Assembly: GCF_030645335.1 (NCBI RefSeq)
Contig: NZ_JAUSNH010000016.1
Location: 1-39,329 of the forward strand
DNA length: 39,329 bases
Direction: 5' to 3'
From: Lacisediminimonas sp.
Lineage (GTDB): Bacteria; Pseudomonadota; Gammaproteobacteria; Burkholderiales; Burkholderiaceae_D
This document shows, piece after piece, positions 15,466 through 30,489 of this stretch (position 1 is the first letter of the stretch; each line of letters starts with the position of its first letter). The notes under the pieces were generated by a model. That model ran no database searches and was not told the origin of the DNA. It saw only the letters and a program-made list of their open reading frames with translations. Position numbers and translations under genes: made by a program.

Positions 15466-15921
15466 ATGCAAATACAGATCGGTGACATCGGGCACATCAT
15501 CCAGCTGGCAATTGCACCTGTGTTCCTGCTCACGGGTGTCGGTACCAACTTGCTGGTGCTCACTAATCGCCTGGCCCGGGTGATCGATCGTTCCCGTGTG
15601 CTGGAAGATCGGATGGAGGCGCGGGGCGAGGCGGTGATGGATGCCTCCCTGGCGGAAATCGCCATCCTGTACCGTCGCGCCAAGCTGATCAATAGCGCGA
15701 TTACCCTTTCCACCACCTGCGGCTTGTTGATCTGCCTGGTGGTTGCCGCCCTGTTCCTCGGCGATGCCCTTGGGCTGGGCCTGGCCACGCTGATTGCCGG
15801 GCTATTCGTGCTGGCGATGTTTTGCCTGATCGGCAGTTTCGTCTTCCTGCTGCGTGAAATCTTTGTGGCGACCAATTCGCTTTGGATGGGGCGGCTTGCG
15901 CACCGCCATACAAGGAGTTAA
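15466..15921 (+). CDS. DUF2721 family membrane protein
   Basis: MQIQIGDIGHIIQLAIAPVFLLTGVGTNLLVLTNRLARVIDRSRVLED...: DUF2721-like with three TM segments. Confidence 0.82.
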   Translation: MQIQIGDIGHIIQLAIAPVFLLTGVGTNLLVLTNRLARVIDRSRVLEDRMEARGEAVMDASLAEIAILYRRAKLINSAITLSTTCGLLICLVVAALFLGDALGLGLATLIAGLFVLAMFCLIGSFVFLLREIFVATNSLWMGRLAHRHTRS

Positions 15922-15997
15922 AAAGGCCATTTGTTCGGTTGACGAATTATCTGCCTTGGCGCATTGTTCGCCAAACAACTTGTTGACTCAAGGCATC

Positions 15998-18900
15998 ATG
16001 ATCCCTAGCGATTCTCAGGATGGCGATCTGGATCGCGACTTCGATGCGTCGATGCTCGCCCTGGTAGCGCAGTCAGTGGGTTTCATCGTGGCCATCTATG
16101 AAATTGAAGATGACCTGATCTACCTCAGCGATCAGTGGTCGCTGCTGACCCGCGCCAACGCCAATCCTGTTTATCTGAGTGTCCACGAGTTCAGCACCCT
16201 GGTGCATCCGGACGATTTTCCGGCGGTTTCGGAAGCACTCGGCGCATGCTTGCGCGGCGAGAGTGAAAACTGGGATGTGGAATTGCGGGTGCGCGCGGCC
16301 ACCGGCGAATGGCGCCGGCTGATGTTGCGGGCCAGGATTGCCGCCCGCAGCGAGTTAGGCGCACCGCAGCGCATCATGGGCGCCATGTTCGATGTATCCG
16401 ATCATCATCGGGCATCTGCCGGCACCGAGGTACAAGACGAGGTTTACCGCTCGTCGTTCGAGCAGAGCATCAATGGCATTTTGCTGGGCACGCCCGACGG
16501 TGGCATCTTGCGTGCCAATCCGGCGGCCTGCCGCATGTCGGGGTATACGGAAACCGAATTGATCAGCCTGGGGCGCGACGGCCTGATCGATACCAGCGAT
16601 GGCCGCCTGGCGGGATTCCTCACCCAGCGGCGATACTTTGGCAAGAGCAGGGCCAGCGTGTCGCTGATCCAGAAAGATGGCAGCCTGCTCGAAGTCGAAC
16701 TGACCTCCGTGCTGTTTACCGATAGCCAGGGTTTGCGCAAGAACGTCATTACCCTGTACCCGGCCTCCGACAATGGCAGCGCCGAGCGCTCGCTTTATCG
16801 CGTCACCCGGATGTATGAGGCCCGCAAGCAATGCAGCAAGGCCATCATCCTGTCCAAGAGCAGGGACACCATGCTGGCCGAGGTATGCCGTGTGGCAGTG
16901 GCGTCGCAGCACCTGGCGCTGGCATGGTTTGGTACAGTGGACCCGGCAACGCTTGCGGTGGTGCCTGTTACCCGTTGCGGCGACGAATCGGAATTCCTCG
17001 ACACCGCCTATTTTTCCGCCGATGCGCGGGTCGACGAAGGCCGCGGCCCGGTTGGCCGGGCATTGCGCGAGAACCGGGCGCAGACATCCAATGACTTCCT
17101 GCGCGATCCGGAAGCGGAACCCTGGCGCGTCCTGGCCGGCCGCCATGGCATGCGCTCGGTTGCAGTGCTTCCGCTGGGACAGGGCGGCGAGCAAGTCGGT
17201 GTGTTGGTGCTGCATGCGCGCGAGCTTGATTTTTTCGACCCGCAATTGCTGGAACTGCTGATCGAACTGGCGCAAGAGATATCGTTTGGCCTGGAAAACC
17301 TGCAGCGCGACGCCGCCTTGCATGAAAGCGAGTCCCGCTTCCGGACGCTATGGGAAACCGCACTCGACGCCATCGTGATCCTGGACGAGCAATCCCTGGT
17401 CCACTATGCCAACCCCGCCATCACCACGCTGTTTGGTTACCGCATCGAAGAAATCATCGGCCGCGGCTTTTGCATGCTGTATCCGCCGGCGCAGGGCGAG
17501 GTCCATGAGCGCGCCATGCAGCGCTACCTGTCCGCGCCGCGTTCCGGGCGCCGCTGGCGCGCGGTAAGCACCATCGGTCGCCACAAGGACGGTCGCAATA
17601 TCCTGATCGAGATCACCTTCAACGATGTCACCATTGACGGTGCGCGCCGCTTCATCGGTTATGTCCGCGACGTCACGCAGCGCAAGCAGGCCGAGCAGTT
17701 GAACCGCAAGCAGAACAGCATCCTGCGCCGCATTGCCGGCGGAGCCGGGCTCGACCCCACGCTGGAGGCAATAGCGCGGATGGTGGAGGGCGAGATGGAG
17801 GAGACGGTCTGCGCCTTCCTGGTGGCCGACGATAGCGCATCGGGCTTCACTGATTGCGTTGCGCCTTCACTGCCGGTTGCGGTGGGCAAGGCGCTGCTTG
17901 CCACGGAGATTGCCAAGTCGGCCGGGCCGGCTGGTGCAACTGCGCAGCGCAGGGAGCCGGTAATCCTGGCGGACCTGTCGGTGCAAACTGCATGGCCGGA
18001 AGCAGTCCAGGCCATCGTGTCGCGCGGCATCCTTGGGTATTTCTGCTGGCCCATCATCGGGCGCTCGTCACATTTGCTGGGCGTCATGGTGGTAGAGCGG
18101 GGCGAGCCCGGCGTACTGGGACCGGCCCACAACCGGGTCGTCCAGCTCGCGCTCGACCTTGCTGGCGTTGCCATTGAAAGCCGCAAGTCGGAAGAGCTGA
18201 TCCGGCATCTTGCCCAGTTCGACGAATTGACCGGCCTGGCAAACCGCACTTTCCTGATCGAGACCCTTGAGCGTTCGATCGCCCGGGCGCGGCGGGGCGA
18301 GGCGCAGGTCGGTGTATTGTTCGTCGACCTCGACCGCTTCAAGCTTATCAACGACACCATAGGCCATGAAGCCGGCGACATCGTATTGCGCGAAGTTGCC
18401 CGCCGCTTGCAAGATGTGGTGCGCAAGGGCGACCAGGTTGGGCGCTGGGGCGGTGACGAATTCATCGTGGTGATCGAGCAGTACGTTGACGTTGGCACCC
18501 TGACCCGGGTGGCAGACAAGCTGATCAATGCGATTTCGGTGCCGATCGCCGTGGGCGATATCGAGTACCAGCTCACCGCCAGCATCGGCATATGCACCTG
18601 GCCGGACGATGGTCCGGACCTGCAATCATTGTTGCGCAATGCCGATCTGGCGATGTATCGCGCCAAGGAGCAGGGACGCAACAGTTTCCGTTTCTTTTCG
18701 GCGCAGATGGGTGTCAGTTCGCTTGAGCGGGTACGGCTGGAGTCGGGCTTGCGGCAGGCCGTGGAAAATGACGAACTGGTGCTGCATTTCCAGCCCAAGC
18801 TCGATCTGCTCACTGGCGAGATCACCGGCATCGAGGCGCTGCTGCGCTGGCAGCATCCGCAGCAGGGCCTGATCTGGCCGCTGAAGTTCATTGAACTGGC

Positions 18901-19582
18901 AGAAGAAACCGGCCACATCGTTGCCATCGGGCGCGCGGTGCTGCGCAAGGCTTGCGAGCAGATGCGGGCCTGGCAGATGGCGGGCCTGACTTCCGGCCGG
19001 ATTGCGGTGAACCTGTCGGCGCGCCAGTTGCTCAGCGAAACCCTGATTTCGGATGTGGCCGGGGCGCTGGAGGAGAGCGGCCTGCCGCCAGGCATGCTGG
19101 AACTGGAGATTACCGAAAGCATGTTGATGAACAACGCCCGTGCCGGGCTAAAGCGGCTGGCCGAGCTGCGCGGCATGGGGGTGCACCTGTCGATGGACGA
19201 TTTCGGAACCGGCTACTCGTCGCTGGCGAACCTGAAGCGCTATCCGATCGACAGCGTCAAGATCGACCGTTCCTTCATCCGCGACCTGCCGCACGACAGC
19301 AATGATGCGGCAGTCACCGAAGCCGTGGTGGCGATGGCGCATGCACTCAAGCTGCGTGTGGTGGCCGAAGGGGTCGAAACCGAGGCGCAACTCAATTTTC
19401 TGCACGCCCAGAAATGTGACGAAATACAAGGCTACTACTTCAGCCGGCCGGTCGCTGCTGCGGTGCTGGAGGATTTCATGCGACGTTATGTTTCGTCCGA
19501 CCGCATCCGGCTGGCGCTGCAGGGCGGGCAGACAAAAATGCCTGCCGCGCCACCGCTGCTGCCATCCCGCGACCCCGGGTAA
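15998..19582 (+). CDS. PAS/GAF sensor diguanylate cyclase/phosphodiesterase (GGDEF-EAL)
   Basis: 1194 aa from MIPSDSQDG; three PAS-like and two GAF-like segments, RWGGDEF, RKGD I-site, and EALLRW plus DDFGTGYSSL EAL motifs. An upstream in-frame start at 15854 is also possible but overlaps the DUF2721 gene. Confidence 0.93.
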   Translation: MIPSDSQDGDLDRDFDASMLALVAQSVGFIVAIYEIEDDLIYLSDQWSLLTRANANPVYLSVHEFSTLVHPDDFPAVSEALGACLRGESENWDVELRVRAATGEWRRLMLRARIAARSELGAPQRIMGAMFDVSDHHRASAGTEVQDEVYRSSFEQSINGILLGTPDGGILRANPAACRMSGYTETELISLGRDGLIDTSDGRLAGFLTQRRYFGKSRASVSLIQKDGSLLEVELTSVLFTDSQGLRKNVITLYPASDNGSAERSLYRVTRMYEARKQCSKAIILSKSRDTMLAEVCRVAVASQHLALAWFGTVDPATLAVVPVTRCGDESEFLDTAYFSADARVDEGRGPVGRALRENRAQTSNDFLRDPEAEPWRVLAGRHGMRSVAVLPLGQGGEQVGVLVLHARELDFFDPQLLELLIELAQEISFGLENLQRDAALHESESRFRTLWETALDAIVILDEQSLVHYANPAITTLFGYRIEEIIGRGFCMLYPPAQGEVHERAMQRYLSAPRSGRRWRAVSTIGRHKDGRNILIEITFNDVTIDGARRFIGYVRDVTQRKQAEQLNRKQNSILRRIAGGAGLDPTLEAIARMVEGEMEETVCAFLVADDSASGFTDCVAPSLPVAVGKALLATEIAKSAGPAGATAQRREPVILADLSVQTAWPEAVQAIVSRGILGYFCWPIIGRSSHLLGVMVVERGEPGVLGPAHNRVVQLALDLAGVAIESRKSEELIRHLAQFDELTGLANRTFLIETLERSIARARRGEAQVGVLFVDLDRFKLINDTIGHEAGDIVLREVARRLQDVVRKGDQVGRWGGDEFIVVIEQYVDVGTLTRVADKLINAISVPIAVGDIEYQLTASIGICTWPDDGPDLQSLLRNADLAMYRAKEQGRNSFRFFSAQMGVSSLERVRLESGLRQAVENDELVLHFQPKLDLLTGEITGIEALLRWQHPQQGLIWPLKFIELAEETGHIVAIGRAVLRKACEQMRAWQMAGLTSGRIAVNLSARQLLSETLISDVAGALEESGLPPGMLELEITESMLMNNARAGLKRLAELRGMGVHLSMDDFGTGYSSLANLKRYPIDSVKIDRSFIRDLPHDSNDAAVTEAVVAMAHALKLRVVAEGVETEAQLNFLHAQKCDEIQGYYFSRPVAAAVLEDFMRRYVSSDRIRLALQGGQTKMPAAPPLLPSRDPG

Positions 19583-19632: not shown

Positions 19633-21582
19633 TCACCATAAGGCGCGGCCGACATTGGGATCAAGTATCCATCCCGGTGGTATTCGCGTGCCGAATGCCG
19701 CGCCATAGCCCTCCATGCCCCCCTGCGCCTGCATTGGCCCCCAGGCCTGCTGCAAAAAATTTTCACCGCCACCCATCAGCGTCGAAAATGGCGACAAGGA
19801 AAAGCTTTGGATTCCCGCCGCCGGTGAGCGCGTCATGCCGCCGATCTGTGTGCTGACCCCTGGACCGGATCGCATGGCTGCCGGGAATTGTTGCGCCGGA
19901 GGCTGCAGGCCCAATGCGATCAGTACGTCGGGCATGCCAAAGCCGGTTCTTTTCGGATCGCCGATATTGATCGCCCTGGTGCTGAACCGGATGATCTGGA
20001 ACAGGCGCTCGACCCGCTCCGCGCTGCGGGTCGCATAGCGCTGCTGGAAGTCCGGGTGGTGCGCCAGGACCAGTGCGGCCAGTCCCGTCACATGCGGCGC
20101 TGCCATTGATGTACCGTCCCACACAGCGAAGTTATTGTCCGGAACCGAAGAGGTAATCGCCACACCGGGCGCACATACCGCAATCTGCGGTCCGAAGCAG
20201 GAAAACTTCGCACTGAAGTAACCATCGGCATCGATCGCGCTGCCGACTGTTTCGGTGTGATAGCTGTCAGGCGGGAATTCCCCCACCTTGCCGATTGCCG
20301 CCACCGCCAGCACATGCGGCGAGGACGCCGGATACTGCACTTCATTACCGGAATTGCCGGCCGCGACAATGCAGGCAATGCCCTGCCGCCGCGCCCGCAA
20401 CAATTGCTGCTCCAGCGCTTCGGACGGCTGGGCGCCGCCCAGGCTCAAGTTGACCACGTCCACCTGCTGCTCGATGCAGTACTCCAGCGCGTCGATCAGT
20501 TGGCTGACCTGGCCGCCGGGGAACAGCTTGCAGACGTGGATCTCGGCGTCAGGCGCGAATCCGCGGATGCCGCGCGGGCCATCGCTGCCGGCGATCACGC
20601 CGGCGCAGTGTGAGCCGTGCGCAATCATGTCTTCGGTCCAGGTACCTGGCGAGGTGCGCTTGTTGATGATGTCGATGCCCAGGTGCACGCCCTTCAGGTC
20701 ATCATGGCTGGTGGCGGCGCCGGAATCGATGATCGCAATCCTGATCCCCTGCCCGCGAAACTGTGGCGGCAGCCGGTCCAGCCGCATCGCCTTCTGGCCC
20801 CAGCCCAGCGCCTGCTGCTGCGGGAACAGCGACAGCGACGGCCAGTCGGCAAGCGGGCGCAGTCCGACCACGTTGGGCCCATCGAAATCGATGTCCGGGT
20901 TGCGCTGGTAAAAGCTCCAATGATCCGCCCTGGGTTTGACATAGAGCGCGCTGATGCTGTCCGGTGTTTCGCCAAACAGTGTCAGCAGCGCCCGGCCCTG
21001 CGCATCGGTGGTGGCATTGGCTGGCAGCAGGCTGCCAAACAGGTAAACTTCCGCGCCGGCCACGGGCGCGTTGTCGGCACCCACCACAAGCACGCCGACC
21101 TGGACCGGCACGCTGCCCTGTGTCGTGAATCCCGCCACCATGCCCGGTGCCGAGAAGCTCGGGTCAAGCAGGTGCAGGCTCTGGTCCGGTTCGACAATCA
21201 CCCGCCCTTGTCCCTGCTGGTTCAGGTTGCTCGCCTTGTCGTCTGCCATGCGCGCCACCAGCACGCTGCTGGAGTCGCCGATTCCGGCACCGAGTGCACC
21301 GATCGCCGACTTCGGCTTGATGATGTCGACGATCTCGATGTCGGGGCTGTTGCGCAAGGCCTGTTCGATCACGTTCGACTGCAGTGGCATCAGTCCCATC
21401 ATCATCAGGCCTTCTTGCTGGCGGCTGGCGACCAGGAACTGTGACTTGCGCCGGCCGATCCGGTGCGGCCCGGGGGCAGGGCCGGCAGCATTGGCGGGGG
21501 CCAAGCGGTCGGAGGAGGGCTGCTTGTCGGCCTCGGAAGACGCCGGGGTAGCGCTGCCGGTGCTCGTGTGTCGTTTTGTCAT
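19633..21582 (-). CDS. S8 subtilisin-like serine protease with N-terminal propeptide-like and beta-sandwich (CnaB/TTR-like) regions
   Basis: Catalytic motifs IRIAIIDSGAATSHDDL (Asp), AHGSHCAGVIAGSDG (His), AAGNSGNE (Asn), DGTSMAAPHVTGLAAL (Ser); 649 aa from MTKRHTST. Confidence 0.93.
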   Translation of the reverse strand: MTKRHTSTGSATPASSEADKQPSSDRLAPANAAGPAPGPHRIGRRKSQFLVASRQQEGLMMMGLMPLQSNVIEQALRNSPDIEIVDIIKPKSAIGALGAGIGDSSSVLVARMADDKASNLNQQGQGRVIVEPDQSLHLLDPSFSAPGMVAGFTTQGSVPVQVGVLVVGADNAPVAGAEVYLFGSLLPANATTDAQGRALLTLFGETPDSISALYVKPRADHWSFYQRNPDIDFDGPNVVGLRPLADWPSLSLFPQQQALGWGQKAMRLDRLPPQFRGQGIRIAIIDSGAATSHDDLKGVHLGIDIINKRTSPGTWTEDMIAHGSHCAGVIAGSDGPRGIRGFAPDAEIHVCKLFPGGQVSQLIDALEYCIEQQVDVVNLSLGGAQPSEALEQQLLRARRQGIACIVAAGNSGNEVQYPASSPHVLAVAAIGKVGEFPPDSYHTETVGSAIDADGYFSAKFSCFGPQIAVCAPGVAITSSVPDNNFAVWDGTSMAAPHVTGLAALVLAHHPDFQQRYATRSAERVERLFQIIRFSTRAINIGDPKRTGFGMPDVLIALGLQPPAQQFPAAMRSGPGVSTQIGGMTRSPAAGIQSFSLSPFSTLMGGGENFLQQAWGPMQAQGGMEGYGAAFGTRIPPGWILDPNVGRALW

Positions 21583-21602
21583 ATTGTTGATCCTGTTTCG
21601 TT

Positions 21603-21860
21603 TCAATTCCCGCCACCGGGGAAGGGGGACAGTGGCTGGTCCGGTTCGATGCTCAGGCGAGTCGCTGCGCGGAATCGGTGACGCAAGGCCTTTGCCTGTG
21701 CGTCATTCATCCGCACCACCGCGGTATGGGGCGCGTGCGGCGGGCCGATGGTGTCTTCGAGTTCAAGCGCCGGGTCGCTGCGTATGCCATCGAGTACATC
21801 GGCCAGCGTGGCGGGATCCGCGGCGTGAACCAGGTAACGTGTTGATGCGGGTCTGCTCAT
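21603..21860 (-). CDS. 85-aa protein resembling a stand-alone subtilase propeptide / I9-like inhibitor
   Basis: MSRPASTRYLVHAADPATLADVLDGIRSDPALELEDTIGPPHAPHTAVVRMNDAQAKALRHRFRAATRLSIEPDQPLSPFPGGGN; aligns with residues ~48-140 of the downstream protease. Confidence 0.8.
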   Translation of the reverse strand: MSRPASTRYLVHAADPATLADVLDGIRSDPALELEDTIGPPHAPHTAVVRMNDAQAKALRHRFRAATRLSIEPDQPLSPFPGGGN

Positions 21861-21887
21861 GTCGTTGTTCGCTCAGTTAACAAGAAG

Positions 21888-21913
21888 GGCCGGACCCGTA
21901 TCCGGATCCGGCC
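21888..21913 (-). terminator. Candidate (weak) intercistronic terminator/attenuator hairpin
   Basis: On the minus strand GGCCGGA-N12-TCCGGCC is followed by CTTCTTGTT, between the repeat-protein stop and the 85-aa gene start. Confidence 0.4.
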
Positions 21914-21951
21914 ATGGCCGTGGGCGCCTGCGACGGGCGCCGCGCAAACTG

Positions 21952-23097
21952 TCAGTGGATGGTTTGCTGGCCAAACCCTGCGCCGGTGGCGCCCTGCGGA
22001 TTGGCATAGCCAGTCCCGCCACCCTGCTGTCCTTGCTGTGCCTGCTGCTGCATCAACTGCTGCAGCATTTGCTGCTGCGCCAATTGGGCCTGCAGCGCAT
22101 ACGCCGTTGCCGGATCATTGGCGAAGGGCAGGATCTGCCCGATCTGACCGGCGATGTTGCCAATCTGCGAGCCCAACTGCTGGTTGCCCAGCATGCCGCC
22201 GACGGCGCTGCCCACTGGTTGGCCGTATTGGCTCAGCAGGTTGCCGAACCATCCTTGCGGCCCCAACGACTGCTGTCCCTGGCCAGGCTGTTGCTGTTGC
22301 TGCTGCTGTTGGGCTTGTTGCCATGCTTGCTGTTGCGCCAGTTGGGCGTAGGCCAGCGTGGCGGGATCAGCGTTGAACGGCAGCATGCGGCCGAACTGCC
22401 CGGCTATGCCGCCGATGGTGCTGCCCATTCCCCGGTTGCCGAGCAAGCCGCCGATGGCGCCGCCGACCGGTTGTGCAATCTGTCCGAGCAAATTGCCAAA
22501 GAATCCCTGCGGCGCAAATTGCTGGCCCTGGCCCTGTTGCGCCTGTTGCTGTTGTTGTTGCTGCTGTTGCAGCAACTGTTGGAGTTGCTGCAGTTGCTGT
22601 AGCTGTTGCAGTTGCGCCGGATCGGCATTGAAGGGCAACATTGAACCGAGCTGTCCTGCAATTCCGCCTATCGTGCTGCCCAGTCCCCGGTTGCCGAACA
22701 TGCCGCCGATGGCGCCGCCAAGTGGTCGTCCAACCTGGCCGATCAGGTTGCCGAAAAATCCTTGCGGCGCCAGTTGTTGCTGTTCCTGTGGCTGTTGCTG
22801 CTGTTGCTGCAGATTTTGTAGTTGCTGCAGTTGCTGCAGTTGCTGCAGTTGCTGCTGCTGTTGGGCTACTTGCATCGGATCCGCATTGAAGGGCAGGAAG
22901 CCCCCGCCGATGCCGCCCGCGATCTGGCCGATCTGTCCACCCAACTGCGAATTGCCGAACAGGCCACCGATGCCGCGCCCCACCAGGCCACCGACCGGCC
23001 CGCCCAGCAGGCTGCCGAATAGCCCCTGTGGAGCCAGACCGCCACCGCCACCATAGGATTGCGCATAGGGATTGGCGTTGTATTGGGATTCGTACAT
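21952..23097 (-). CDS. Glycine-zipper / polyglutamine repeat protein (381 aa)
   Basis: Four repeats of APQGFFGNLxGQxxxPxGGAIGGxxGNRxxGSTIGGIAGQxGxxLPFNADP joined by polyQ/LQQ linkers; RBS AAAGGAG just upstream of the ATG on the minus strand. Confidence 0.88.
   Translation of the reverse strand: MYESQYNANPYAQSYGGGGGLAPQGLFGSLLGGPVGGLVGRGIGGLFGNSQLGGQIGQIAGGIGGGFLPFNADPMQVAQQQQQLQQLQQLQQLQNLQQQQQQPQEQQQLAPQGFFGNLIGQVGRPLGGAIGGMFGNRGLGSTIGGIAGQLGSMLPFNADPAQLQQLQQLQQLQQLLQQQQQQQQQAQQGQGQQFAPQGFFGNLLGQIAQPVGGAIGGLLGNRGMGSTIGGIAGQFGRMLPFNADPATLAYAQLAQQQAWQQAQQQQQQQQPGQGQQSLGPQGWFGNLLSQYGQPVGSAVGGMLGNQQLGSQIGNIAGQIGQILPFANDPATAYALQAQLAQQQMLQQLMQQQAQQGQQGGGTGYANPQGATGAGFGQQTIH
22111..23037 (-). repeat. 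Four-copy coding repeat: 22876-23037, 22618-22773, 22363-22518, 22111-22266
   Basis: Repeat units of 54, 52, 52 and 52 aa, spaced 88, 85 and 84 aa apart, counted from the translation. Confidence 0.9.
22822..22848 (+). repeat. 9-nt tandem repeat (TTGCTGCAG)x3 within an LQQ-encoding linker
   Basis: Three exact copies read at 22822-22830, 22831-22839 and 22840-22848, followed by TTGCTGCTGCTG. Confidence 0.85.
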
Positions 23098-23481
23098 GTG
23101 AAACTCCTTTGTATGGATTTGCCGGTCCGGGCATCCGACATGCCAGTCCGGTTGTCCGAACTACGCATGCCAATGCCGTGCACCCTGTATTGCCCTGCGA
23201 CCGGCCAGATTTTTCTTCGATTTCGGGTGCAGAACCGATTGCCCCCGCGTGAGTTTGCTGCGGCAGAAGAACCACGACCGACGTGTCCTTCATGCTGCGA
23301 GCAGTGTTGTCGGGCGCCGTGGGGTTTTCAAGCCGTGCTGGGGCAGACTTGAGAGGTCTCAATAGGGCTGCAGTCAGCGTTAAGCCGGTGCACATTAAGG
23401 TCGATTAGCGAACGTTTTTTATGGTCCTGCCGCAGCAGGATTGCCGCGCCGGTAGTGTTCGCTACAGTGCCCGCTACATAC

Positions 23482-23916
23482 CTACCGTTGACGGTCCGGC
23501 TCATGCCAGCGGCGATGCTCACCGCCACCATGCAGCCGGCGCAGTTCATGCTCGTGCCACTGGCGAAGGTGCAGCTCTTCCTCGAACAGACGCCGGTCGC
23601 GCAGCGAGGGGTCGCCATGGGTAAATGGCGGCGGCTGCGGCGGTACAGGCTGCCAGCCCGGGTAGAAAGGCTGCATCGACGTATAGGGAAAAGCCGGCGT
23701 GACGAAAGGCGAGGGAGAGGGCGCTTGCAGCAAGGGCGGCGGTGGATTGAACATTCCCGGGCTTGGCGCAAGATGCGGGAGCGGCGCTGGCGGCGCGCGA
23801 TGATGCGCCCCGGGTGGCGGATTGACCAGCCCCCTTGCTCCATGCGCCAAGGCGTTGAGCGGCGCCCACAGGTACAGGCACGCAGCAAAAGCAACAAGAC
23901 CAGTAATGATGCGCAT
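23482..23916 (-). CDS. Proline-rich protein with N-terminal signal/anchor segment
   Basis: MRIITGLVAFAACLYLWAPLNALAHGARGLVNPPPGAHHRAPPAPLPHLAPSPGMFNPPPPLLQAPSPSPFVTPAFPY...; GGAG located ~8 nt upstream of the ATG on the minus strand. Confidence 0.62.
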   Translation of the reverse strand: MRIITGLVAFAACLYLWAPLNALAHGARGLVNPPPGAHHRAPPAPLPHLAPSPGMFNPPPPLLQAPSPSPFVTPAFPYTSMQPFYPGWQPVPPQPPPFTHGDPSLRDRRLFEEELHLRQWHEHELRRLHGGGEHRRWHEPDRQR

Positions 23917-24623: not shown

Positions 24624-26528
24624 ATGAACCCTCGTTTTACCTGCGCTCCCGCATGGACGCCGTTCGCACTCGCCCTGGCCATTGGCGCGGCTTATTCTCC
24701 ACTCTCCCAGGCGCAAGCCAGATCCGATGCCACGCTGCCTGAAGTCCAGGTAAGCGGCTCGCGCTTTGTCAGCGATCCGGTTTTCGCGCCGCTTGGCGCC
24801 ACCGTCATCAGCGCCGATGAAATCCGCGACGCCGGCATCGGCAACGTCAGTGAGGCGATACGCAAGCTGGGCAATGTATCGGGCCGACAAGGCTTTACCG
24901 CGCCGGATAATTTCTCGCTCGACATGCGTGGCTTTGGCGCCAACAGCGACCAGAATATCGTGATCATGGTAGACGGCGTGCGCCTGTCAGAAAATGAACA
25001 GGCGGCTGCGCAACTGAGCGCCGTGCCGATCGACAGCGTCGAGCGTATTGAAATCGTGCGCGGTGGAAATAGCGTGCTGTACGGTGACGGCGCGATCGGC
25101 GGCACGATACAGATCATCACCAAAAAGCCGCAGCGCAACACCCAGCGCGCCAGTGTGTTCGTTGAAGCAGGCAGCTTCGGCCAGCGCGCCGCACGTGCCA
25201 CGTTTTCAAAGGACTGGAACGGCCTGGCGCTGGATGCCAACCTGAGCCGGCAGGATCAGGAAGGCTATCGCCGCAATAACGCCGTGCGCGAAGAAAATGT
25301 CAGCGCCAGCTTGCAAAAGTCTTTCGAAGGCGGGCGTGTCGGTCTGCGCGTGGAGAATGGCACGCAAGATTTCCGTCTGCCTGGCGCCTTGTCCCTGGCG
25401 GCATTCCAGGCCGATCCGCGCGCGACTAATACGCCGCGCGATTTCGGCTCGCTCGACAGCCGTCGCACCACCTTGTTCGGCGAGATGCGCGCCGGTGAAC
25501 TCGATTTCGCCGCCGAACTTTCCAATCGCGAAAAAGCATCGCGGCAATATGGCAGTTTCCCGTATTCCTTCGATACGCGCACCACGCAGTTTTCCCCGCG
25601 CGTGCGCTGGCTGGGTACTGTCGGCGGCCTGCGCAATGAGCTCGTCAGCGGCATCGACCTCACGCGCTGGTGGCGCAGCGTCGGCAGCGCAATCGCGTCG
25701 CAAGACGCCCAGGCGATCTACCTGCGCGATGAATTGCGCATCGGGCGCTGGCGCATGGCTGCCGGTGCGCGCCACGAAAGTTTCGACAAGAAGGACACCA
25801 AATACAAGGTCGAACAAAGCGTCAATGCCTGGGAGCTGCAGGCGGCTTATGCGGCAAGCGAGCAGGCCGAGGTCTATGCCAAGCTCAGCAAGAGTTACCG
25901 CATCCCCAACGCGGACGACAATGCATTCCTGGCCAAGCCCTTGTTGCCGCAGACCTCGCGCGATATCGAAGTCGGCGCCGTGCTGGGCGATGCGCGCCGC
26001 AAATTCATTGCACGGGTATTTCGCCACAAGCTGTCCAACGAGATATTTTATGATCCGACCGTGTTCTCCAACGTGAACCTTGATCCGACGCAGCGCGAAG
26101 GTTTCGAGCTGGAAGCCAATCTGCGCATAGCGCCGAGCGTGTCGCTGGCCGGTGCGTTTTCGCATATCGCCGCCGGCTTCACTGCCGGGCCGAATGCCGG
26201 ACGCGAAATGATCCTGGTACCGCGCAATACGGCCTCGTTGCGCGTGAACTGGATGCCTGGCGGGCCGCAGCGCGCGACCATCGGTGTACGCTGGACGGAT
26301 GAGCAGCGCTATGGTGACGACTTCAGCAACGCGTGCAGCAGGCGCATTGCTTCCTATGCGGTGGTCGATGCACGGTATGCTTATCGCAGCGGGCCATGGG
26401 AATTTGCCGCCACCGGCAGCAACCTGGCCAATCGAAGTTATTTCAGCAATGCCTTCTCCTGCGCCACCGGCAGCGTCTACCCGGAATCCGGCCGCCAGGT
26501 CCGGGTATCGCTGCGACGTGATTTCTGA
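24624..26528 (+). CDS. btuB: BtuB-like TonB-dependent outer-membrane receptor
   Basis: Signal peptide, plug domain (MRGFGANSDQNIVIMVDGVRLSENEQAAAQLSAVPIDSVERIEIVRGGNSVLYGDGAIGGTIQIIT), terminal Phe; directly behind a cobalamin riboswitch. Confidence 0.9.
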   Translation: MNPRFTCAPAWTPFALALAIGAAYSPLSQAQARSDATLPEVQVSGSRFVSDPVFAPLGATVISADEIRDAGIGNVSEAIRKLGNVSGRQGFTAPDNFSLDMRGFGANSDQNIVIMVDGVRLSENEQAAAQLSAVPIDSVERIEIVRGGNSVLYGDGAIGGTIQIITKKPQRNTQRASVFVEAGSFGQRAARATFSKDWNGLALDANLSRQDQEGYRRNNAVREENVSASLQKSFEGGRVGLRVENGTQDFRLPGALSLAAFQADPRATNTPRDFGSLDSRRTTLFGEMRAGELDFAAELSNREKASRQYGSFPYSFDTRTTQFSPRVRWLGTVGGLRNELVSGIDLTRWWRSVGSAIASQDAQAIYLRDELRIGRWRMAAGARHESFDKKDTKYKVEQSVNAWELQAAYAASEQAEVYAKLSKSYRIPNADDNAFLAKPLLPQTSRDIEVGAVLGDARRKFIARVFRHKLSNEIFYDPTVFSNVNLDPTQREGFELEANLRIAPSVSLAGAFSHIAAGFTAGPNAGREMILVPRNTASLRVNWMPGGPQRATIGVRWTDEQRYGDDFSNACSRRIASYAVVDARYAYRSGPWEFAATGSNLANRSYFSNAFSCATGSVYPESGRQVRVSLRRDF

Positions 26529-26558
26529 GCCACGGCACAGGTTCGCAGGGACAGCCAG

Positions 26559-27521
26559 ATGAACGCACGACCGATGCTCTTGTCGCTGCTGGCGGGACTG
26601 GCCGTGCTGGCGCTCGCGCTGGGCGTGGCATGCGGCAGCAGCGGATGTAGTGCATTGTCATCCGACATCCTGTGGCAACTGCGCCTGCCACGCGCGCTGG
26701 CCGCGTTTGCGGTTGGCGCCTTGCTGGCCCTGTCCGGCGCGCTGATGCAGGTGCTGCTGCGCAATCCGCTGGCTGATCCCTATGTGCTGGGCGTGTCCGG
26801 CGGCGCAGCCGCCGGCGCCATGCTCGGGCTGAGCTTATTTCCGGCGCTGGCCTGGAGCCTGCAAGCCGGTGCGCTCGCCGGCGCCCTGTTGTCACTGCTG
26901 CTGTTGCTGGCACTGGCCGGGCGCGCGCTGATGGGCGCTGCCGCGCCAGCTTCGACCGCGCCGGCCGGCGTGCGCCTGATCCTGACCGGCGTGATGATCG
27001 CGGCCGCATTCGGTGCACTGCTGTCGATGATGTTGGCCATGGCGCCCGACAATGCGCTGCGCGGGGTGTTCTTCTGGTTGCTGGGCGACCTCGAGAGCAG
27101 CCGCTACCAGGCGTTTGGCTGGATCGTGCTGGTGGCCGCCGTCATCTGGTCATGGCTCGCTGCGCCGCAGCTCAACGTGCTGGTGCATGGCGACGCGGCG
27201 GCTTTCCTGCTCGGCGTCCGGGTCGACCGCTTGCGCCTGATGACCTTGCTGGTGGCGGGCATTTCCACCGCAGCGGCGGTCTCGGTTGCCGGCACGGTCG
27301 GCTTCATTGGCCTGGTTGTGCCGCATGCGGCGCGCCTGATGATCGGCAATGACCAGCGCCTGCTGCTGCCTGCTTGCGCATTGGCCGGTGGTGCGGTGCT
27401 GGTACTGGCCGACCTTGTTGCGCGCACGGTGGTGGCGCCGGTGCAATTGCCGGTGGGTGTCATTACGGTGCTGGTCGGCGTACCGGTATTTCTCGTCCTG
27501 CTGGCAAGGAGCCGGACATGA
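26559..27521 (+). CDS. btuC: FecCD-family ABC transporter permease (cobalamin)
   Basis: LRLPRALAAFAVGALLALSGALMQVLLRNPLADPYVLGVSGGAAAGAMLGL: FecCD/BtuC signature. Confidence 0.9.
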   Translation: MNARPMLLSLLAGLAVLALALGVACGSSGCSALSSDILWQLRLPRALAAFAVGALLALSGALMQVLLRNPLADPYVLGVSGGAAAGAMLGLSLFPALAWSLQAGALAGALLSLLLLLALAGRALMGAAAPASTAPAGVRLILTGVMIAAAFGALLSMMLAMAPDNALRGVFFWLLGDLESSRYQAFGWIVLVAAVIWSWLAAPQLNVLVHGDAAAFLLGVRVDRLRLMTLLVAGISTAAAVSVAGTVGFIGLVVPHAARLMIGNDQRLLLPACALAGGAVLVLADLVARTVVAPVQLPVGVITVLVGVPVFLVLLARSRT

Positions 27522-28309
27522 CGCTGCTCGAAACTCGCGGATTGACGCTGCAAGCCGGCTCCCGCCTGCTGGTGCAGGGACTCGACTGGCGGGTGGAGCC
27601 GGGGCAGCTCTGGTGCCTGCTGGGACCCAACGGCGTTGGCAAGACCACGCTGCTGCATGCGCTATGCGGCCTGCGCCAACCGGTGGCGGGCACGGTGCTG
27701 ATCGACGATCGGCCGATCGCAGCCACGCCGCCGGAGCAGCTGGCGCGCCGGCGCGGACTGCTGCCGCAGCAACAGTTCGATGCGTTTTCCCATAGTGTGC
27801 TGGATACGGTGCTGGTGGGGCGCGCGCCGTATCGGATCGGGCGGCAGTGGGATAGCCAGGATGATCGCGCCATTGCGCGCACTGCATTGCGCCGGCTCGG
27901 CCTGGAGGCGCTCGCCCCGCGCGATGTGCTCACCTTGTCGGGCGGCGAACGGCAACGCGTGGCGTTCGCCGCATTGCTGGCGCAAGCACCGCCCTTGATG
28001 CTGCTTGATGAGCCGACTTCGCACCAGGACGTCGGTCACCAACTGGCGCTGATGGGCCTGATGCGCGAGCTGCTCGACACGCATGCCGTCGTAATGAGCT
28101 GCCACGACATCAACCTCGCGGCGCGGCACGCCACCCATGCGTTGCTGCTGTCCGGCACACGCCACTGGATCGGCACTGTCGATGCGGTCCTGAGCAGCGC
28201 CAATTTGCAGGCTGCGTTCGGATGCCGCTTTGAGAAAAACGGGAATTATTTTGTCGCCGTTGAAGCGGATTTTGCCGATGGTGCTGCGTCTTCGGCCGGC
28301 GCATCATGA
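27518..28309 (+). CDS. btuD: ABC transporter ATP-binding protein (cobalamin)
   Basis: Walker A GPNGVGKTT, signature LSGGERQRV, Walker B LMLLDEPTS; ATGA overlap with btuC. Confidence 0.9.
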   Translation: MTLLETRGLTLQAGSRLLVQGLDWRVEPGQLWCLLGPNGVGKTTLLHALCGLRQPVAGTVLIDDRPIAATPPEQLARRRGLLPQQQFDAFSHSVLDTVLVGRAPYRIGRQWDSQDDRAIARTALRRLGLEALAPRDVLTLSGGERQRVAFAALLAQAPPLMLLDEPTSHQDVGHQLALMGLMRELLDTHAVVMSCHDINLAARHATHALLLSGTRHWIGTVDAVLSSANLQAAFGCRFEKNGNYFVAVEADFADGAASSAGAS

Positions 28310-29559: not shown

Positions 29560-30488
29560 TCAGCGCTTGCTGCGCGCAATATCCAGCGCCCGGCAAATGG
29601 CTTGCGTGCCTTCCAGGATACGCGGCGTTGCGCGCGTGAGCGTATCGGCATCAACCGTAAAAAGATTCCCCAGCCGCACCGCGGTGGCGCGCGGAAAGCG
29701 TTGCCAGATCTGCAGGCCATCGTCATCTGCGCGTCCGCTGGCATTGATGATCACGGTCGGATCGGCCAGCAATACATCTTCGATGCCAATGGTCGGCGCA
29801 AGCTGCGGCAAGTGAGCGAAAACATTGCTGCCGCCGCAAATGGCCATCGCTTGCGATACCAGGTGCTCGTTATTGAGCGTCATCAGCGGCGAGCGCCACA
29901 CCTGGTAAAACACCCGCACCGGCGGACGGTTGCGATAGCGTTCCTGCAATTCGCGGACCTGGCGCCGGAATTGCGTCGCCGCCGCCCGTCCGGCGGATGC
30001 CGTGCCGGCCAGGATTGAAAGCCGTTCCAGCGACGTGGCGATGGTCTCGAAATCGCGTGGTTCGCTGATGAAAACCGGATAGCCAAGATCCTGCAACTGC
30101 TGCAGGCGCACTGGATTATTGCCGCTGCCCCAGGCGACGATCAATTGCGGTCGCAGTGCGGCAATGCGCTCGATGTCAAACGCGGCGGCGCTGCCGACCG
30201 ATGCAATTGCCCGCGCCTCGCGCGGGAAGTCGCTGTATTCAATCACGCCCGCCACACTGCTGCCGGCGCCGACTGCAAACAGCAGTTCAGTGGCATGGGG
30301 AGCCAGGCTGACGATGCGTCGCGCCGGCGACGACAAGCTGACTGTGCGTCCGGCGTCATCAATCACCTGGACCTGTGCCTGCGCGGGCCCGGCAGCCGCG
30401 GCAAGCGCCAGCAGCGCCAGCGCCAACAGGCCGCACAGCAAGCGGCGCTGGCCTTGCCACAAGCAGTGGTGAAGGCCGGCCTGGCGCA

Positions 30489-30489
<1 letters not shown>
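29560..30489 (-). CDS. btuF: Cobalamin-type ABC transporter substrate-binding protein
   Basis: Signal peptide then VQVIDDAGRTVSLSSPARRIVSLAPHATELLFAVGAGSSVAGVIEYSDFPREARAIASVG: BtuF/FecB family. Confidence 0.88.

Follow-up and report, generated by a model that had tools for sequence, protein, structure and literature searches.

The S8 proteases QhpE and PatA/PatG process a dedicated peptide substrate in cofactor or natural-product pathways. Plasmodium SUB1-ProM is a stand-alone, propeptide-like protein that is encoded beside subtilase genes and acts as a potent and selective inhibitor, and the yeast peptidase B inhibitor has likewise been named as a stand-alone propeptide-like inhibitor (PMC6993865). 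The Caulobacter CdzABCDI system is a contact-dependent bacteriocin that contains glycine-zipper proteins of 84-86 aa, predicted to aggregate; the Cdz proteins are exported by a type I system, are accompanied by an immunity protein and, as described, have no subtilase (PMC5380434).

Here we analyse a stretch of 39,329 nucleotides from Lacisediminimonas sp. (contig NZ_JAUSNH010000016.1; the window) in which a glycine-zipper repeat protein (rep), an 85-aa protein (p85) and a subtilase (S8) are encoded side by side. Like SUB1-ProM, the yeast inhibitor and the fungal protein POIA1 (structure with subtilisin BPN', PDB 1v5i), p85 is a small, separate protein predicted to be of the propeptide type. 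The cassette differs from these systems in being bacterial and leaderless, in that S8 keeps its own prodomain and in its third gene, which codes for a repeat protein; inhibition by p85 is putative. The glycine zippers of rep recall Cdz, but type I secretion and immunity genes were not found around the cassette, and only the cassette has an S8 subtilase. S8 shares catalytic-domain similarity with QhpE and PatA/PatG, but its scores are far below the cut-offs for those families and no QhpC/QhpD or cyanobactin genes lie near the cassette. We found no description of such a three-gene bacterial cassette in the open-access literature, and it appears to be an undescribed system of environmental bacteria.

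The original prediction described a locus of four same-strand genes, and all four ORFs are present on the minus strand (start codons were picked by rule). S8 (19633..21582) is a leaderless subtilase of 649 aa with an ATG start and an upstream TTG at 21606; p85 occupies 21603..21860 and rep, of 381 aa, 21952..23097. The fourth gene (23482..23916) encodes a Pro-rich protein with a hydrophobic, signal-like N-terminal segment. The gaps are 384 nt between the Pro-rich gene and rep, 91 nt between rep and p85, and, as had been noted, 20 nt from the stop codon of p85 to the ATG of S8. S8 is the only one of the four proteins with a Pfam family (PF00082), nothing scoring above the cut-off for the others in Pfam and NCBIfam searches. 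The grouping of rep, p85 and S8 stands, but the Pro-rich gene does not belong with them: apart from one genome of the same genus (44% identity), no other locus has a conserved copy. The functional unit is therefore 19633-23097.

To define the distribution of the cassette, we searched 146 genomes of the window's family in six frames for S8 homologues, took 6-19 kb around each and searched these neighbourhoods with all window proteins. Besides the window, close S8 homologues (about 57-78% identity) are found in 25 of the 146 genomes, and one further genome has two diverged copies. rep is upstream of S8 in 24 of 24 testable genomes, and directly upstream wherever the contig reaches; the contig of the remaining locus, L040, stops short of this position. 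In 24 of the 25 genomes, p85 is encoded between rep and S8. It is absent from two close or distant loci, L050 (the exception among the 25) and L056. Each of the three genes is conserved as a protein in more than 20 genomes, so that their features go beyond chance. The surroundings are not shared: an all-against-all ORF comparison revealed no flanking gene other than rep, p85 and S8 that is common to all neighbourhoods, and the flanking genes vary by clade, with several unrelated settings (one clade, for example, has the cassette flanked by earP/efp and gltX). Recurrent co-occurrence across genera, which the original prediction had proposed as its own test, is thus what we observe. Because the genes travel together across many bacteria, rep, p85 and S8 are probably one undescribed machine.

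Profile searches gave the same picture from the side of the partner genes. Matches to the p85 profile (142 family genomes) and the rep-unit profile (138 family genomes) are confined to genomes with S8 or an S8 remnant, except for a single rep without a visible S8 in genome G090, which sits at the end of a contig so that the next gene lies beyond it. The homologues are thus not routinely found apart, which would have counted against a single unit: no p85 occurs away from S8, and rep does so only at this broken contig. Among 299 genomes from across the phylum, p85 matched only cassette genomes, and the rep profile gave two extra matches, both with E>1e-4. Matches to a profile built from the N-terminal region of S8 are rare (4 of 399 phylum genomes and 5 of 300 order genomes, the window's genome counted); they occur in a family of another class and on two Streptomyces plasmids. 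The order rep-p85-S8 is kept in L067 and L068 from the other class and in L055 from the window's own family, despite sequence-unrelated rep repeats; L075 likewise has the three genes in this order. At most 399 genomes were covered per search, and phyla beyond Pseudomonadota were reached through plasmid records only. A scan of genome contigs returned one relative, Lacisediminimonas profundi. Plasmid searches with three rep types gave no match, and a phage search with S8 gave general catalytic-domain matches only, none covering 80% of the query.

Several individual loci depart from the standard form. At L079 (G052:C1:256500-262500) the cassette has decayed, a deletion having joined a p85 fragment to the C-terminal portion of S8, and rep was not seen in the 6 kb examined around this remnant. 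In L047 (G124:C322) a frameshift near residue 310 splits S8, with both rep and p85 intact; this is either an assembly error or a recent pseudogene. At L077 (G635:C202) there are two upstream genes, encoding a Gln/Gly-rich protein of 299 aa and a protein of 152 aa with Ser-Ile-His at its C-terminus; p85 was not recognised there.

S8 is a member of the subtilisin family by both sequence (Peptidase_S8, PF00082, E 3.1e-40) and modelled structure (Foldseek to subtilisins, 1e-22). The catalytic triad and oxyanion Asn (Asp286, His322, Asn410 and Ser492) are invariant in the 19 aligned proteobacterial S8 proteins. In an AlphaFold model (mean pLDDT 72), residues 47-132 form an alpha/beta domain, residues 160 to 240 or so a beta-sandwich and residues 258 to 556, again approximately, the catalytic domain; 1-42 and 565-649 are disordered. 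We assign the corresponding features to residues 46-136 (21175..21447, minus strand), an I9-like prodomain identified by profile comparison and in the model; residues 158-250 (20833..21111), the beta-sandwich, with weak CarboxypepD_reg/Big_1 similarity; and residues 258-556 (19915..20811), the subtilisin-fold catalytic domain, from the Pfam match and the model. Foldseek aligned the model to unprocessed pro-subtilisin E (3whi) over 523 columns with a target-normalised TM of 0.80. The catalytic domain alone would give about 0.86 of 275 residues in this comparison, and because the observed value exceeds its possible share, the N-terminal domain of S8 appears in the model to occupy the propeptide position of pro-subtilisin E. 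This modelled docking of a propeptide on the catalytic domain is as in pro-subtilisin E and BPN' (S8A), from which S8 differs in having no signal peptide, a beta-sandwich inserted after the prodomain and a disordered C-terminal tail ending in Trp. The terminal Trp, found in the window's S8, is present in 23 of 24 readable Oxalobacteraceae-type S8 proteins. Against more specific families the scores are far below the cut-offs for QhpE (NF049966, 3.4e-22) and PatA/PatG (TIGR03895, 1.2e-9), and S8 reaches 137 bits against a cut-off of 279 for the type VII secretion mycosins (TIGR03921 equivalog), which it likewise resembles over the catalytic domain only.

The 85-aa protein had been predicted to be propeptide-like, and profile-profile comparison upholds this. 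In hhalign, p85 matches residues 42-138 of S8 with a probability of 98.5 and E 2e-15; the two share the same order of elements and an IExDxPL end. In an independent profile search, the second match of the p85 profile in most genomes is the S8 N-terminal domain. On this homology, we take the view that p85 is a stand-alone second copy of the I9-like propeptide of S8 itself. None of 21 p85 members matched Pfam below 0.01, a search of Pfam, NCBIfam, PHROGs and PADLOC yielded no family for p85 or rep, and searching PDB sequences with the S8 N-region and p85 profiles gave nothing significant. Foldseek found no subtilisin propeptide among the top 50 matches to the p85 model, ranking BMC-H shell proteins, PduA among them, first at weak significance (best E 3e-3, TM 0.5-0.6), so the propeptide identity of p85 rests on homology to the S8 domain and not on a fold match.

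rep has an extreme composition, with 27% Gln, 20% Gly and 2.9% charged residues, and is built of four glycine-zipper units joined by Gln-rich linkers. All four units match the rep-unit profile: unit 1 (PQGLFGSLLGGPVGGLVGRGIGGLFGN...GGIGGGFLPFNADP) at 22867..23034 and body units 2, 3 and 4 at 22609..22770, 22357..22515 and 22102..22260, all on the minus strand. Unit 1 is of a separate head type (head-head identity 0.61 versus head-body 0.49), and readable copies have one to five body units. Body units have a mean identity of 0.80 within one protein versus 0.64 between proteins, as expected for repeat homogenisation. A unit starts with PQG and an aromatic or aliphatic residue and ends with LPF-x-A/V-DP, or more narrowly LPF-[SNG]-[AV]-DP. 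Its glycines are regularly spaced, those at positions 4, 7, 19, 23, 27, 32, 36 and 44 being invariant or nearly so, and the conserved glycines from position 19 onwards form GxxxGxxxG zippers, a feature of the Cdz type. Typical Oxalobacteraceae-type reps have 1-7% charged residues, 14-32% Gln and 13-23% Gly. A transmembrane role was rejected, as no stretch of a typical rep reaches a KD of 1.6. The weak matches of rep to DUF5832 and phrog_3112 cover mostly Gln-rich sequence and probably reflect composition. In L067 the repeats are seven copies of LQSFWSVLKKIGQGVQTGVNIGHQLGVF and in L055 they are APQGFDFGSILSTVAQGAAQALPGLLMGLLSS, both unrelated in sequence to the window's units. Despite such differences, the protein ends in His in 28 of 28 complete cassette reps, usually as Thr-hydrophobic-His; in the window the end is Thr-Ile-His, encoded directly before the stop (21955..21963, minus strand). 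Four reps, in L056, L076, L061 and L062, have no terminal His, and these are diverged variants with no recognised p85.

Between rep and p85 the window contains an intercistronic hairpin, GGCCGGATCCG-GATA-CGGGTCCGGCC (21888..21913, minus strand), with a strong, GC-rich stem, 27 nt before the p85 ATG. In 16 of 21 loci the best stem at this position is stronger than expected from dinucleotide-shuffled sequence (p<0.05), compared with 4 of 23 for the same test upstream of rep. The Fisher combined value of 7e-18 overstates independence, the loci being related, although the stem sequences differ widely between genera. Stems are also present in L055, L067 and L068, with paired changes in the latter two and a full terminator shape with a T-tract in L055. 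The spacing from the end of the stem to p85 is mostly about 17-30 nt. This leaves no room for a promoter between them, from which we infer read-through transcription from rep into p85-S8. The hairpin is a candidate attenuator or mRNA-stabilising stem, and the arrangement fits a single operon that would yield much rep and little protease. In L067 (10145-10969) and L068 (5045-5869) a 274-aa protein that by eye looks like the SARP/BTAD type is encoded immediately ahead of rep in the same orientation; it is a possible regulator of the cassette in these two loci.

On balance, we favour the view that rep-p85-S8 is an operon-encoded module in which a self-associating repeat protein is handled by a dedicated subtilase under the control of I9-type propeptides in cis and in trans. 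The abundant, nearly uncharged rep would self-associate through its glycine-zipper units within the cell. S8, at low abundance and dedicated to rep, would bind it, probably through the motifs at the unit starts and ends and/or the C-terminal x-hydrophobic-His, and would cleave or remodel it so as to control assembly. Classical subtilisins prefer AAPF, which LPF-x closely resembles, and the unit end is therefore a candidate cleavage site; LPF-x-A-DP may instead be a helix cap. The N-terminal propeptide of S8 would aid folding and keep the enzyme latent, while p85, a second propeptide copy from the same transcript, would inhibit S8 or aid its folding in trans, such that rep processing starts only when p85 is removed. 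The earlier proposal that S8 processes rep or controls its assembly is consistent with the arrangement described here. If the module works in this way, it would be a bacterial example of a subtilase that has a single dedicated repeat protein as its partner and is controlled by a duplicate of its own propeptide made from a separate gene. It would also allow study of how Gln/Gly glycine-zipper proteins of low charge avoid harmful aggregation, and the terminal His, the unit ends and the hairpin offer direct and cheap experimental handles. A tentative extension, which we regard as possible rather than likely, is that the system forms a cell-internal protein polymer or condensate whose repeat payload can be exchanged and whose C-terminal hydrophobic-His tag is read by the system's own subtilase, with the trans propeptide timing processing, and that it spans two Pseudomonadota classes and a catalytically dead branch on Streptomyces plasmids.

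The cassette could also be a protease-activated self-killing or anti-phage module, with rep as a polyprotein made up of membrane-active helices: on a trigger p85 would be removed and S8 would cut rep, freeing glycine-zipper or amphipathic peptides that make the membrane of the producing cell permeable. Lineages differ in the hydrophobic module but retain the protease, the C-terminus and the motifs on either side, a pattern that an exchangeable payload would show, and the cassette is patchily distributed within the family. S8 proteases are known in defence systems, among them IetAS, and S8 is weakly similar to IetS (E 5.9e-9 in PADLOC and 8.3e-5 in NCBIfam). This match is, however, confined to the catalytic domain and far below the 900-bit cut-off, and the cassette has no conserved ATPase partner. 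More generally, the neighbourhoods have no conserved gene for a sensor or an ATPase and none of the defence-island kind, hydrophobicity in typical reps peaks at a KD of about 1.0-1.3, short of transmembrane values, and the arrangement of the hairpin suggests that rep is made in bulk, a hazard if rep were a stored toxin. We therefore consider this explanation unlikely.

A different division of labour is suggested by the Streptomyces plasmids, where S8 homologues of about 35% identity (L061, 6010-7596; L062, 5806-7584) lie beside a Gln/Gly-rich upstream gene. In these relatives GTT or GTA replaces the catalytic GTS (Ser to Thr or Ala) and the oxyanion Asn is replaced by Asp; they should therefore be inactive, and are apparent pseudoproteases with a related partner. 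Retention of that partner after loss of the catalytic residues indicates that proteolysis is not essential in every lineage, and binding may outweigh cutting in some. S8 might thus be mainly a scaffold or quality-control factor that, by binding rep, nucleates, caps or clears assemblies, with catalysis secondary. We think this improbable, given the full triad and oxyanion Asn in 19 of 19 proteobacterial proteins; moreover, the Streptomyces partners, which have neither terminal His nor p85, are a diverged variant.

The original prediction raised a surface fibre or Cdz-like bacteriocin. An exported product of this or the class IIb-like kind, processed by S8 outside the cytoplasm, would account for the glycine zippers and aggregation-prone composition that rep has in common with CdzC/CdzD (PMC5380434) and for the adjoining Pro-rich protein with its signal-like N-terminus. 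But rep, p85 and S8 all have N-termini unlike signal peptides, the flanks have no conserved ABC/HlyD transporter or immunity gene, and the Pro-rich gene is restricted to the genus Lacisediminimonas. These observations weaken the idea, which we now judge quite improbable.

That p85 is some other ferredoxin-like protein, such as a shell or assembly subunit for rep, rather than a propeptide mimic, as its BMC-H matches might suggest, is highly improbable, because those matches are weak and explained by common fold topology whereas the homology to the S8 N-terminal domain is direct.

Two other features of the window flank the cassette. A large multi-sensor protein of GGDEF/EAL type (15854-19582) is convergent with S8 and occupies the corresponding position in L031, a locus from the same genus. 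Genes for a TonB-dependent receptor, a BtuC-like permease, an ABC ATPase and a periplasmic binding protein (24624-28309 and 29560-30489) look, by eye, like a corrinoid uptake locus.
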